Source: Fictibacillus macauensis ZFHKF-1 (GTDB lineage: Bacteria; Bacillota; Bacilli; Bacillales; Fictibacillaceae). From it: a stretch of 64,000 bases of DNA. The position numbers and the translations under genes are program-made. Positions 4,179 to 60,647 of this stretch are shown one piece after another; the stretch's first letter is position 1, and each line of letters starts with the position of its first letter. The stretch lies in assembly GCF_000269865.1 (NCBI RefSeq), contig NZ_AKKV01000025.1, positions 124,001-188,000 on the forward strand. The letters run 5' to 3'. A model generated the notes under the pieces. That model saw nothing but the letters and a program-made list of their open reading frames with translations, was not told where the DNA came from and searched no databases.

Positions 4179-4865
4179 TTACGTACTTGTTTCGTAAACA
4201 ATTTCTTGTAACGGTTTTTGATTAGGTTCAAAAGGATCGTCCTTTTTTTCTTGTAAGCAAGTTTCCACCATTCCATGCAGTTGAATGAGTTGACTTAGCT
4301 TCTTTTGCATCGTTATCGAGACGAGCATAAGCCAGATTAAGATCAGAACAACTGTTTTGATAGCGCTCGTTTGCGTAAAGGTTATATTTTGTACCGAGAC
4401 GATGCCAAGTGCCATACTCGTTAGTAAACCAAGAAGTACAGCACCTGCATAGACTAGGAGCTTGCGATATTTAACAGCAGCAATACTTCCTTTAAAGTAC
4501 GTTCCGAGGAGCTGAAGTTCAGCTGGACGTAAATGCATCAAGTATTTGCGAACTTCTAATAAATTGTTCATTAAGCCACCCGAACGTTGTTTACGAAGAA
4601 GCGGCTGTAAAAAGACGGCAAGATCACGCTGACTGCCAATACTGCTTTTTAACGAACGATGAATGTAATTATAATCATAATAATAGCTTGTAACTTTATG
4701 AATGAGCTTTAACACCACTAGCCCCACTACAATGGCATACAGAGCTTGCACGAAAAAATATGCAGAAATAGATGTAAAAAACGCATCAATAGCAAAGAAA
4801 CTAGCACTTGTCTTACTCCATATAATTTTACCGATTAGTACAAACAGCTCCCATAGTTGCGACAC
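4179..4865 (-). CDS. Multi-spanning membrane protein of unknown function
   Basis: A 228-residue protein. The start is the GTG seven bases after AGGAGG; upstream in-frame codons lack a ribosome site. Hydrophobic segments lie at roughly residues 25-55, 130-150 and 160-180, with a long basic cytosolic loop between (around residues 60-125, containing SLKSSIGSQRDLAVFLQPLL). The C-terminus is acidic and soluble. No catalytic motif is visible and I do not recognise the family. It stands alone, converging on aag. Confidence 0.65.
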   Translation of the reverse strand: MSQLWELFVLIGKIIWSKTSASFFAIDAFFTSISAYFFVQALYAIVVGLVVLKLIHKVTSYYYDYNYIHRSLKSSIGSQRDLAVFLQPLLRKQRSGGLMNNLLEVRKYLMHLRPAELQLLGTYFKGSIAAVKYRKLLVYAGAVLLGLLTSMALGIVSVQNITFTQTSAIKTVVLILIWLMLVSITMQKKLSQLIQLHGMVETCLQEKKDDPFEPNQKPLQEIVYETST

Positions 4866-5055
4866 ATGATTTCCTCCTGTACAAAGAATTCCCAACATTA
4901 CTATACCACTTTTTGGACAAAGAAAGCATGATTTATTGGAAAACAAACCGTAGAAAACCATTCGCTCATGGAGTAATATCTTCCATTCCCCCAAAGACAT
5001 TTACCATGAACCGAAAAATATAAAGAACGCTGAACGACAACTAGGAGGAGACAGT

Positions 5056-5250
5056 ATGAGAATTGTATTTTTTGAAAAAGGTGAGCTCAGTATCATCGTG
5101 GGTGCTTCTCGTTTAAAGGGAGATTTAACGATCGAGCAAATTAAAAATGAAAGCGACAAAAAAGCAAAAGAGCTTAGCGGATTACTTGGCCGTGAAATTG
5201 GCTTTATGATAGATATGAATGGTCAGCTTGAGCATGAAATTAAACGCTAA
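5056..5250 (+). CDS. Small hypothetical protein, 64 residues
   Basis: A small soluble protein with a strong site (AGGAGGAG six to seven bases before ATG). The N-terminus is hydrophobic with strand character (MRIVFFEKGELSIIVGASR), followed by an amphipathic Lys/Glu-rich helix and a short C-terminal strand. Function unknown. The repeat element begins 13 bases after its stop codon and supplies the only hairpin that could end its transcript. Confidence 0.6.
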   Translation: MRIVFFEKGELSIIVGASRLKGDLTIEQIKNESDKKAKELSGLLGREIGFMIDMNGQLEHEIKR

Positions 5251-57044: not shown

Positions 57045-57550
57045 CCAGTTCACCGTTTATTTATTGCTACCCAAAATACGGATAACGATCGTGTTATCGA
57101 GCAGCTCTCCTTTCCTTTTTAGTTCTGTCATTTTCTGCGCATCGTATTTCCTCGAAACGCACTACCTACCTTTTTAATACTTTCATTTTGAAATGAATTC
57201 TATATAAGAAAGATATCATCTTGAACGATATCGCTTTGTAGGATAGACTTTTACTATGTAATCATTGAAAATGAAGCGGAATTTCTTCTATTAAAAAAGT
57301 AAGTTCCTTCTTCCAAAGAGTATACTCCTTCTCTTTTATACACGTCAATGTACTAAAAATGTCATAGAAAAAACGCTCAATATGCTACTTATTAAAGCAA
57401 GGATGAAACAAAATTCCCTTCACAACGCCAGAAAGCATGACTATTGTACCTGTTTTTTTGAATATTTACATACTATAATCTGATAGTTAATATTTTCTAA
57501 TCACATTACATATTAGATGGCTGTTGTTGCTGGAATGGAGGATATAATAA
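57045..57550. other. Intergenic region upstream of the sigI-like gene
   Basis: About 500 AT-rich bases between divergent genes. TATAAT at 57473-57478 is a possible -10 but the -35 region is poor. No ACCCCC..CGAA-type sigma I promoter is seen. All three forward frames are broken by stops, and two in-frame TAA codons directly precede the sigI-like start, so no lost sigma region 2 can be read here. Confidence 0.6.
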
Positions 57551-57988
57551 ATGATCAGCTGGCTTAGACGAAAAAAAACATTAACCGGTGCTCAAATCCC
57601 AGCTGCGGAAGAAGACCCTTACACCTCTCCTGCCGCGGTAGTGATGGAGCTAAAAAGTAAAGCCATCCCACCCGATAAAGAAATAGAGCACTTTAAACAT
57701 AAATTATTACAATATGGCATTGAACTGCAAGACATGCCAAAACAAACGCCTTCAAGGTATAAAGCAAGATCTTCTGCCTTACAAACAGCATACTTTATTG
57801 CGGATCATGAGGAGTTACGCGATGTGTTTTTGAAAAACCGTCAACTACCAATGCTCTCATTAATGCCCGCTCATCATAAAAAGAGTATTAAACGGCATGC
57901 GTCCTACATTATTGCTGCAGCTCTTATTATTATAGAAGATTATCATTATCTTAAAGGCTATTTGCCAGAACAGGAGGCCCTTTCATGA
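57551..57988 (+). CDS. SigI-like protein lacking sigma region 2 (C-terminal DNA-binding domain only)
   Basis: A 145-residue protein. Residues about 44-138 (EIEHFKHKLLQYGIELQDMP, RYKARSSALQTAYFIADHEEL, RQLPMLSLMPAHHKKSIKR, YIIAAALIIIEDYHYLKGYL) match the C-terminal half of sigma I (about 250 residues in B. subtilis), including the helix-turn-helix that reads the -35. The N-terminal region 2 that binds core RNAP and the -10 is missing; the first 43 residues are unrelated. TGGAGGA lies eight bases before the ATG. It overlaps rsgI by four bases, so the pair is coupled as in true sigI-rsgI operons. Confidence 0.8.
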   Translation: MISWLRRKKTLTGAQIPAAEEDPYTSPAAVVMELKSKAIPPDKEIEHFKHKLLQYGIELQDMPKQTPSRYKARSSALQTAYFIADHEELRDVFLKNRQLPMLSLMPAHHKKSIKRHASYIIAAALIIIEDYHYLKGYLPEQEALS

Positions 57989-59763
57989 CAAGGGGAATTG
58001 TGGTAGAGGTAAAGCGTCGACATATGATCGTTTTATCCGACGGTGTATTTCATAAAGTAAAAATTTCTGGCCAACCTTATACTGTGGGCAGTGACATCGT
58101 ACTGCAAGAAGAACGAAAAAGACGCGAAAGAGCCAATGAAGGCTCGTTCTTTAAAAGAAAAGTAGTATTTGCTTTTACACTTGCCATCTTATTAGTTTTG
58201 TTTCAATTTCATAGCTTTGCTGGTCAAGGAGCCTACGCTTATGTTGGCATTGATATGGATGCTAATATTGAAATGGAAATTGATGAACATCTTCTCGTTC
58301 ATGATATTAGTACGTATAATGCCCGAGGCAAAAAACTTCTATCTCAACTAAACAATTGGCGCAATCAACCCATTGAAAAAGTGACCGATATGATTTTTAG
58401 CATCTGTCGTAAACAAGGCTATATTAAGCCTAACCAAGAAATTCTAGTTACAACGACGCTCAATAAAGACGTGAGTCAACAAATAAAAAAACAAATTGAG
58501 CAAAAAATTAACGATTTAATGCAACAAAAAGCAAAAGAAAATATGCTGATTATGACAAGCTTACTTATGTCTAATGAAGATCGCAAACGTGCCCTAGAAA
58601 TTGGCGTATCACCTGCTAAATATGCCATTTTCATAGCAGCTAAGAAAAGTGGTATTCCGTTAACAGAAGCAGATATAAAAAATAAAAGTATTGATGAACT
58701 GTCTGATAAAGTCGGTCGACCCATTAGCACACTTCTCTATGATTCAAAAATCGGCGCACATTTGAGCTATCAGCCGAAGGAAACCGATGATGAAGTGAAC
58801 GTTAATTTGTCTTCTGGTGCGCCGATTGAACATCCCGAGTCGGCCCTACATTTAACGAATTCAATCGGTACGAATGGACCAACAGCGACGACTGAACAAC
58901 AACCGAAATCACAACAACCTACAGGTGATTCCAGCTCTTCTAAACCGTTAACTGTTGATCCATTAGATACACCGACACCGACACCAACGCCAACACAGAC
59001 TACTCCACCACCTACTACAGTAAAGGTGGAGGTTCTACCAAAAGACACTAAACCGGTTACTACAGGTTCAGAAATACCGTACAAACAACCCGAGCTAAAG
59101 CTTCCGCCGCCGCTGAAGGAAAATAAACCAGATATACCAACGATTGAGTTACCTAAACAAGAGCCTGTGTTGCCGAAACCAAAAGAAGAGAAGCCAGTCA
59201 CACCTATTCCTGATCCAGGGTCTCGTAAAGACGACAAAGTCACGCCACCCCTTGAGGAACCAAAACGTTCCGAAACCAAGGAGCCTACGCATAACAAGGA
59301 AACTGGTCCCACTCATCAAGAAAACCCAACTCCGGCTTCTGATGAGAAAAAGCAACCGACTACAGAGACAAATCCTCCTGAGCAAAAAGAGCGCATCACT
59401 CCACCTGTAGCGGATGAGACAAAAAAAGAAGAACAAGTACGACCATCAACTACAGAAAATACACCGACTCTTCCAGCGACGGAAACGGCTCCGATTGAGA
59501 AGAGTCAGCCTCCTGTAACACAGGATCAAAATGAAGCACCGTCTCTACCAGCAACAGCACAGGATCAACCGGCAGAAGAACAAACGATTGCTCATACTAG
59601 TAATCATGAGAACACGGTCGTTCTTCCGGATCAATCACTAGCAGAGGACAAGCAGGCAGCACAGCAAAAAGAAGCAGTACCTCCACCGTCGACAGAGGAA
59701 GGAACGGCTCTTGAAACACCGCCAAGTGAGCTTACTTCACCAAAAGAAGAACCAGCTGCGTAA
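57985..59763 (+). CDS. rsgI: RsgI-type membrane anti-sigma factor with long Pro/Thr/Glu-rich tail
   Basis: A 592-residue protein: cytosolic anti-sigma domain (about 1-50; MTRGIVVEVKRRHMIVLSDG), membrane helix (about 59-79), an external domain (about 82-275) and a disordered Pro/Thr/Lys/Glu-rich tail (about 290-592). In many RsgI proteins the external domain starts SIDINPS, where an Asn-Pro bond is cleaved; here it reads GIDMDAN, so Asn-Pro is Asp-Ala. No carbohydrate-binding module is seen; the tail may span the cell wall. It should hold the upstream SigI-like protein at the membrane. Confidence 0.88.
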   Translation: MTRGIVVEVKRRHMIVLSDGVFHKVKISGQPYTVGSDIVLQEERKRRERANEGSFFKRKVVFAFTLAILLVLFQFHSFAGQGAYAYVGIDMDANIEMEIDEHLLVHDISTYNARGKKLLSQLNNWRNQPIEKVTDMIFSICRKQGYIKPNQEILVTTTLNKDVSQQIKKQIEQKINDLMQQKAKENMLIMTSLLMSNEDRKRALEIGVSPAKYAIFIAAKKSGIPLTEADIKNKSIDELSDKVGRPISTLLYDSKIGAHLSYQPKETDDEVNVNLSSGAPIEHPESALHLTNSIGTNGPTATTEQQPKSQQPTGDSSSSKPLTVDPLDTPTPTPTPTQTTPPPTTVKVEVLPKDTKPVTTGSEIPYKQPELKLPPPLKENKPDIPTIELPKQEPVLPKPKEEKPVTPIPDPGSRKDDKVTPPLEEPKRSETKEPTHNKETGPTHQENPTPASDEKKQPTTETNPPEQKERITPPVADETKKEEQVRPSTTENTPTLPATETAPIEKSQPPVTQDQNEAPSLPATAQDQPAEEQTIAHTSNHENTVVLPDQSLAEDKQAAQQKEAVPPPSTEEGTALETPPSELTSPKEEPAA

Positions 59764-59804
59764 TAAAAAAGCGATGACTTTTAAAAAAAGTCATCGCTTT
59801 TTTC
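59763..59804 (+). terminator. Intrinsic terminator of sigI-rsgI
   Basis: AAAAAAGCGATGACTTT and AAAGTCATCGCTTTTTT form a long perfect stem followed by CG TTTTCC. Confidence 0.9.
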
Positions 59805-59861: not shown

Positions 59862-60647
59862 ATGCGCTTCAAAGATTATTTCTTTTCATACTTACGTCTA
59901 CCTTTATTATTGCGGATCTTTTCTATCATAGGCCCGCTTATTATTTTATTTGGCATTATCATTCATTTCATTGAACCTACTAATTTCCCAACCATTTTTG
60001 AAGGTATTTATTGGGCTGTTATTACGGGTGCTACCGTAGGGTTTGGTGATTTCGTTCCAAAAACAGCTTATGGGCGTATGATGTCCATTTTACTTGTATT
60101 CATGGGGAGTGCCTTTATTGGCTTTTTTACAGTGAATGTGGCTGCTGCCATTATTCAAAAACAAAACAAATACAAGGAAGGAAATTTTATGTTTAAAGGA
60201 CGAGAACATTTAATTATTGTTGGTTGGAACGAACGCAGCAAACAAACCATTTCTGAATTGCTTCATCAGCCACAGCCACCATACAAACATATCGTACTCA
60301 TTGATGAGACATTAAAAGAAAATCCCATGTATCAACAAGAACTTCTTTTTATTAACGGAAGCCCTGTACAGGACGATACGTGGGCTCAAGCAAATGTTAA
60401 GACGGCTTCTACGGTTCTGATTACCGCTGATCAAAATTTAAAAGAAAGTGCAGCAGATATGCAAACCATTCTGGCTGTCTTAACCGTAAGAGGTGTACAT
60501 CCGGACGTAGTGATACTAGCAGAAATATTAACAGCTGAACAAAAACAGAATGGTTACCGTGCCGGAGCAGATGACTTAATTACAACAACCGTCATTGCAA
60601 GCAATGTTATGGTGAACCGTCTTCATGACCTTCAAAAAAGAAACTAA
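59862..60647 (+). CDS. yugO: Two-helix potassium channel with RCK/TrkA-N domain (YugO-like)
   Basis: A 261-residue ion channel subunit. Membrane helices about 14-40 and 73-96 flank the pore helix and selectivity filter ATVGFGDFVP (about 62-71; TVGFGD rather than TVGYGD). A cytosolic TrkA-N/RCK domain (about 112-240) has LIIVGWNERSK in place of a full GxGxxG. It is shorter than B. subtilis YugO (about 328 residues), lacking most of the C-terminal part. In B. subtilis biofilms YugO passes potassium signals. Symbol by synteny with yugN-pgi-yugJ. Confidence 0.85.
   Translation: MRFKDYFFSYLRLPLLLRIFSIIGPLIILFGIIIHFIEPTNFPTIFEGIYWAVITGATVGFGDFVPKTAYGRMMSILLVFMGSAFIGFFTVNVAAAIIQKQNKYKEGNFMFKGREHLIIVGWNERSKQTISELLHQPQPPYKHIVLIDETLKENPMYQQELLFINGSPVQDDTWAQANVKTASTVLITADQNLKESAADMQTILAVLTVRGVHPDVVILAEILTAEQKQNGYRAGADDLITTTVIASNVMVNRLHDLQKRN

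Follow-up and report, generated by a model that had tools for sequence, protein, structure and literature searches.

Organization of the locus

A sigma factor and its anti-sigma factor are usually viewed as a promoter-reading factor joined to a sensor. In the window, a stretch of 64,000 nucleotides from Fictibacillus macauensis ZFHKF-1 (contig NZ_AKKV01000025.1, positions 124,001 to 188,000 of the forward strand), a gene that encodes only the C-terminal half of SigI stands directly before an rsgI gene. What does such a half-factor do beside an anti-sigma factor of its own? The initial annotation described a strong ribosome site, two in-frame stops upstream of the short gene and an ATGA coupling to rsgI. 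Its coordinates and anatomy are correct (Table 1), with the stop of the short gene and the start of rsgI overlapping at 57985-57988, and the one amendment concerns RsgI, which has Asp-Ala where Asn-Pro is usual.

Table 1. Features of the short gene-rsgI locus (positions in the window)
Feature	Position	Strand	Remark or basis
Upstream block	57437..57500	+	Common to both genera; alignment of upstream regions, 21 of 25 genomes
Element TACTATAAT	57471-57479	+	Inside the conserved upstream block
Ribosome-binding site GGAGG	57537-57541	+	9 nt before ATG; sequence
In-frame TAA TAA	57545-57550	+	Directly 5′ of ATG 57551; sequence
Short gene, 145 aa, stand-alone SigI C-domain without region 2	57551-57988	+	NCBIfam and PDB matches; conserved
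SigI-C part of the short protein, residues about 41-140	57671-57970	+	NCBIfam and PDB matches
Codon Arg69, place of SigI6 His171 (A-tract minor-groove reader)	57755..57757	+	SigI6 alignment
rsgI, 592 aa	57985-59763	+	Pfam; sequence
rsgI codons Asp92-Ala93, place of the usual Asn-Pro pair	58258..58263	+	Alignment of 71 RsgI
Intrinsic-terminator-like hairpin, 18 pairs	59765..59803	+	3′ of rsgI
K+ channel gene	59862-60647		Downstream of rsgI; channel domains by Pfam

The conserved upstream block is the probable promoter or operator of the operon. It contains a TATAAT element with no obvious -35 element at the usual distance, a combination that may indicate activator-dependent expression, and a consensus scan of the block gave only weak sigma-70-like sites. 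A promoter of the SigI type (A-tract plus CGWA) was not evident by eye in the upstream alignment. Because of the hairpin 3′ of rsgI, the K+ channel gene probably lies outside the operon.

Gene order was compared in the 12 regions with enough flanking sequence (11 fetched regions and the window). The window and six regions of a second genus (g2) share the order short gene, rsgI, K+ channel gene and two further genes, which we take to be a YugN-like gene and pgi. In the five other regions from the genus group of the window (g1), about 3 kb is inserted before the K+ channel gene. This insert (L151-L155) carries Ser/Arg-rich and other genes and is absent in the window.

Identity of the short protein

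The NCBIfam SigI models match the short protein with their C-terminal half only (best E 7.8e-21, profile positions 145-242 of 248). Its score of 75 bits lies below the whole-protein cut-off of 318, as does that of the genome's own full SigI (280.5); under TIGR02895 (cut-off 185), the full SigI scores 248.7 and the short protein 71.1. No Pfam family exceeded its cut-off. In the PDB, the SigI1 and SigI6 chains each gave one significant stretch, over their C-domains. Three ubiquitin chains ranked above them in the first PDB search through summed weak repeats, and the SigI chains alone were matched in a PDB profile search. Searches of three proteins against phage families gave nothing convincing.

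When the window was searched with the full SigI by tblastn, the C-terminal half was the sole significant match (E 5.7e-13; the next was 0.28). The first 125 residues of full SigI found no match at E<=0.05 within 1.5-3 kb upstream of any of the 25 short genes described below, and all six control loci were recovered at E 6e-54 or lower. A frameshift or a missed region 2 is thus rejected by the upstream stops, the tblastn search of the window and the upstream search with the N-terminal half. The start of the short protein, MISWLRRKK, aligns loosely with full SigI where its region 2 ends, which places the cut near the domain border. The profile searches and the lack of any match to the N-terminal half within the frame or 5′ of it thus bear out two earlier statements, that this is the C-terminal half of SigI without region 2 and that it cannot be a normal sigma factor.

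A separate protein could in principle supply the missing region, making the short protein one half of a split sigma factor, as the initial annotation proposed. Sigma function is divided between two proteins in SigO-RsoA of B. subtilis (PMC10141391), and T4 gp55/gp33 is described as a split sigma (PMC2988020). However, the partner was sought in the genome and not found: all 15 region-2 matches lie in open frames of at least 180 aa, and the SigI N-half has no lone relative there, although a very divergent region-2 protein could escape such a search. The present case also differs from SigO-RsoA in the loss of the A-tract histidine discussed below, and we regard a split sigma factor as very improbable.

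Occurrence and selection

The short gene is present in 25 of 34 genomes of the family, namely all seven of g1 and all 18 of g2, and rsgI lies directly 3′ of it in every case. These 25 genomes represent a few lineages rather than 25 independent events. A short form confined to one strain is rejected by its presence in two genera. All 25 carriers have a SigI match elsewhere in the genome (in two pieces in one, G015), and the full SigI of the window's genome has 249 aa (G000:C19). Both checks called for earlier, for the short form in related genomes and for a full SigI elsewhere, were therefore positive.

The single genome of a third genus (G025) retains the same gene order, with an RsgI_N remnant in a 59-aa frame (L157 = G025:C2, about 1860-2090). 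Directly before the remnant is a SigI-C-like scrap of 16 residues (E 0.008), and the short gene and rsgI were probably lost there as a pair. The eight genomes of a fourth group have a single RsgI_N each.

The short gene is under purifying selection. In g1, 16 of 21 pairs were usable and gave a median dN/dS of 0.27; in g2, with G007 excluded, 134 of 136 pairs gave 0.15. The corresponding value for the canonical SigI C-domain in g1 is 0.025 (19 of 21 pairs). A pseudogene is rejected by the values for the short gene. They exceed that of the canonical C-domain in g1 by a factor of about 6 to 11, which would suit a decaying duplicate or an assembly error, but the frame is open in 25 genomes, dN/dS is well below 1, and the ribosome site and the position before rsgI are conserved; we give this explanation practically no credence.

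Constraint is distributed unevenly along the protein (6 g1 genomes without the window and 17 g2 genomes, with segment boundaries drawn by eye). Helix alpha-8 is the most constrained segment in g1 (0.07; 0.08 in g2) and the C-terminal helix is the most constrained in g2 (0.06; 0.23 in g1). The values for g1 and g2 are 0.33 and 0.20 in the A-tract loop, 0.45 and 0.18 in the helix-turn-helix (HTH), and 0.37 and 0.36 in the N-terminal tail; in canonical SigI, the HTH has 0.012 and the loop 0.026. For the N-domain of the RsgI encoded beside the short gene (hereafter RsgI2), the same genome sets gave 0.19 (g1) and 0.12 (g2).

Residues contacting promoter DNA

In SigI6, His171 is described as the reader of the promoter A-tract in the minor groove; its replacement by Tyr, Phe, Asn, Ser or Ala abolishes activity in vivo, and Lys or Arg leaves a little (PMC10575876). 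This place is occupied by His in all 47 full SigI, defined as open frames of at least 237 aa at the fetched loci only (311 genomes had a match) and including many close relatives, but in none of the 25 short proteins (9 Glu, 8 Asp, 3 Thr, 3 Ser and 2 Arg). The window protein has Ser-Arg in place of the Lys-His pair K170-H171.

The loss extends to other contacts. An alignment was prepared in which five broken or cut loci (L015, L111, L131, L132 and L133) were dropped and identical ORFs were merged. Among the positions conserved in at least 80% of full SigI, none of the 8 that contact DNA is kept in 80% of the short proteins, versus 13 of the 23 others (Fisher p 0.0096, with neither rows nor positions independent). 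Single positions persist. Of the neighbors of His171, Pro169 is kept in 25 of 25 and Arg175 in 24 of 25. Within one genus, some contacts to DNA are retained: 17 of the 25 short proteins have Arg at the place of R219, 17 have it at that of R221, and 13 have Lys at that of K170. The label "DNA-binding half" given earlier is not supported in the SigI sense. The same losses weaken the proposed competition for SigI promoters, in which the short protein would act as a decoy occupying the -35 sites of full SigI. It does share its domain family with the part of SigI that reads the -35 site, but with the A-tract histidine and most conserved contacts gone, we consider promoter occupancy of this kind extremely improbable.

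Another kind of DNA binding is possible, given that the loop and recognition helix of the g1 short proteins are still basic. The mean C-domain charge is +6.6 in g1, +1.9 in g2 and +3.5 in full SigI; SigI6 itself has +9. On this basis, the short protein could be a membrane-released regulator whose remaining HTH binds a different DNA site after its release from RsgI2. The basic g1 domain, the basic recognition helix in g2 (KLTMKRQREY), the presence of Arg or Lys at the R219 place in 25 of 25 short proteins and an HTH dN/dS below 1 in both genera are consistent with this. It is countered by the residue at the A-tract place, which is acidic in 17 of the 25, by the conserved contacts given above, and by the HTH itself, whose turn is 2 residues shorter in g1 and whose scaffold helix is hydrophilic in g2. 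We therefore hold DNA binding at other sites to be rather unlikely.

The partner RsgI

Pfam identified both expected domains in RsgI of the window, RsgI_N (5.4e-7, 29.8 bits against a cut-off of 25) and RsgI_M (2.8e-26, 93.1 bits against 25.3). By eye, a transmembrane stretch covers about residues 58-78, followed by a long Pro/Thr/Glu-rich tail. RsgI_M was assessed by Pfam in the window protein, and the other proteins were recognized through RsgI_N, frame length and alignment.

The self-cleavage of RsgI falls at an Asn-Pro pair in its central domain. In our alignment of 71 RsgI, from which rows under 250 aa and the orphans described below were left out, the pair is present in 42 of the 45 proteins encoded beside a full SigI but in only 6 of the 25 RsgI2. 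The g1 proteins retain it in six of seven cases, the exception being Asp-Ala in the window, and the g2 proteins have Asp-Pro in 17 of 18 and Glu-Pro in G007. The release step may therefore differ in most pairs, and judging from this alignment regulated release from RsgI2 may be altered or lost. In C. thermocellum, self-cleavage of the RsgI periplasmic domain is reported to be followed by intramembrane cleavage and ClpXP (PMC12203970), and the two cleaved parts of B. subtilis RsgI are reported to remain joined while the wall is intact (PMC10202637).

The missing Asn-Pro pair in 19 of 25 RsgI2 raises the question of whether release is needed at all. The short protein could serve solely as a partner of the anti-sigma factor, stabilizing RsgI2 or locking it in a state in which RsgI2 is itself the working sensor. 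Each of the 25 genomes has both genes, and in G025 the two apparently decayed together, which is in line with this reading. However, SigI-C proteins without a detected rsgI-like gene 3′ exist in other families, and Asn-Pro is kept in most g1 RsgI2, which leaves a purely stabilizing role distinctly unlikely in our judgement.

The alignment also left out the cut rsgI beside the full sigI of the window's genome (L002, G000:C19, 2008-2331), which encodes 107 aa comprising the N-domain and the transmembrane part. At the same place in six other g1 genomes, the open frames have 439-464 aa.

Possible mode of action

We propose, with a probability of about 0.5, that the short protein is a sigma-derived ligand that does not read SigI promoters, is held by RsgI2 and acts by protein contact. 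This reading is based on the retention of the C-domain beside its own RsgI together with the loss of region 2 and of the A-tract reader. RsgI is reported to bind the SigI C-domain on the same surface that the RNA polymerase beta flap uses (PMC10575876).

The short protein lacks both the core clamp and -10 contacts of region 2 and the residue that reads the -35 A-tract, but keeps the domain, and it is co-produced with a membrane anti-sigma factor of its own. In the proposed scheme, the N-domain of RsgI2 would most likely bind and sequester it as RsgI does SigI. A wall signal sensed by RsgI2 would then release the short protein, which would act through the surface used in SigI for RsgI and the beta flap. 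Two effector steps are conceivable. The freed protein could bind the polymerase flap as a mimic of sigma domain 4, similar to T4 gp33, or, as a decoy, it could occupy RsgI1, the RsgI that belongs to the full SigI, and thereby free that sigma factor.

Some observations run counter to this contact-based reading. The positions kept outside the DNA interface may reflect the fold alone. As for blindness to DNA, the His place is taken in the window protein by Arg, a replacement (H171R) described as leaving SigI6 some activity (PMC10575876); selection still constrains the HTH of g2 (dN/dS 0.18); and one rsgI-linked short form from another family (G105) keeps the histidine.

Comparison with known systems

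The short protein resembles SigI in its C-domain homology and in having an rsgI, with RsgI_N and RsgI_M, directly 3′ of its gene and in translational coupling with it. It differs from the SigI/RsgI system in the absence of region 2 and of the A-tract histidine, in the retention of a canonical SigI elsewhere in the genome, and in the absence of Asn-Pro from most RsgI2. What is new is the state in which one half of a known pair is retained.

T4 gp33 is a small protein of similar size (112 residues) that is described as binding the beta flap at the site of sigma domain 4 (PMC2988020). It serves as the model for the inferred action, flap binding by the short protein being presumed. Unlike the short protein, gp33 has no stated sequence similarity to sigma proteins, and it connects to a sliding clamp instead of a membrane-bound anti-sigma factor. 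The orphan RsgI9 of Clostridium thermocellum is another RsgI that is not part of a normal sigma/anti-sigma pair (PMC12203970); it is described there as having no identified sigma partner, whereas here half a sigma factor is kept beside rsgI. Among the titles and abstract openings surveyed (subscription papers lay outside the scope), SigI without region 2 was not found as a subject.

The pair persists across two genera after its factor lost the features that define a sigma factor, and similar orphan half-factors exist elsewhere. If the contact-based reading is true, the output of anti-sigma sensors could be rewired, with a released protein acting by contact on the polymerase or on another anti-sigma factor.

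Stand-alone SigI C-domains in other families

Among the matches listed in an order-wide sample of 397 genomes, we found at least 19 further stand-alone SigI-C forms outside the family; all 28 non-family genomes with two or more listed matches were followed up. One of these forms, in G105 (L143, G105:C23), is a different short SigI-C gene linked to rsgI. Its RsgI has 577 aa, with Asn-Phe at the usual Asn-Pro place.

The remaining 18 (L188-L205) are orphans of 111-124 aa from three other families among the matches listed, and come from 14 genomes of one genus (all of g24 among the matches listed), three g85 genomes and G336. No rsgI-like gene was found 3′ of them in the ORF lists for six and a crude motif scan for all 18. 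None of the 18 has the A-tract histidine (11 Glu, 4 Asn and 3 Asp), and the six that were scored have a C-domain charge of about +10. Purifying selection also acts on the g24 orphans (median dN/dS 0.16, 57 of 91 pairs). A class-wide search of 398 genomes gave 218 aa as the smallest open frame among the matches listed.

In a tree built from few columns and containing some long branches, the 25 short proteins group in a single clade (99/96), and the stand-alone forms fall into separate clades. A single origin of the stand-alone forms was tested on a thinned set of 21 stand-alone rows that included neither G007 nor G105. It is not rejected (AU p 0.156), and convergent origin is not claimed.

Tentatively, and with less confidence than a firm proposal would require, we suggest a family of stand-alone, DNA-blind SigI-C proteins in several families of the order. 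With the A-tract histidine replaced, mostly by Glu or Asp, they would have abandoned promoter reading and would regulate RNA polymerase or SigI/RsgI purely by contact. The Fictibacillus factor would be the member with its own wall-sensing RsgI, its output being a flap-binding or anti-anti-sigma protein.

In one genome, a small sigma-like ORF was recognized by eye near an orphan SigI-C gene (L137, reversed locus 4709-5194).
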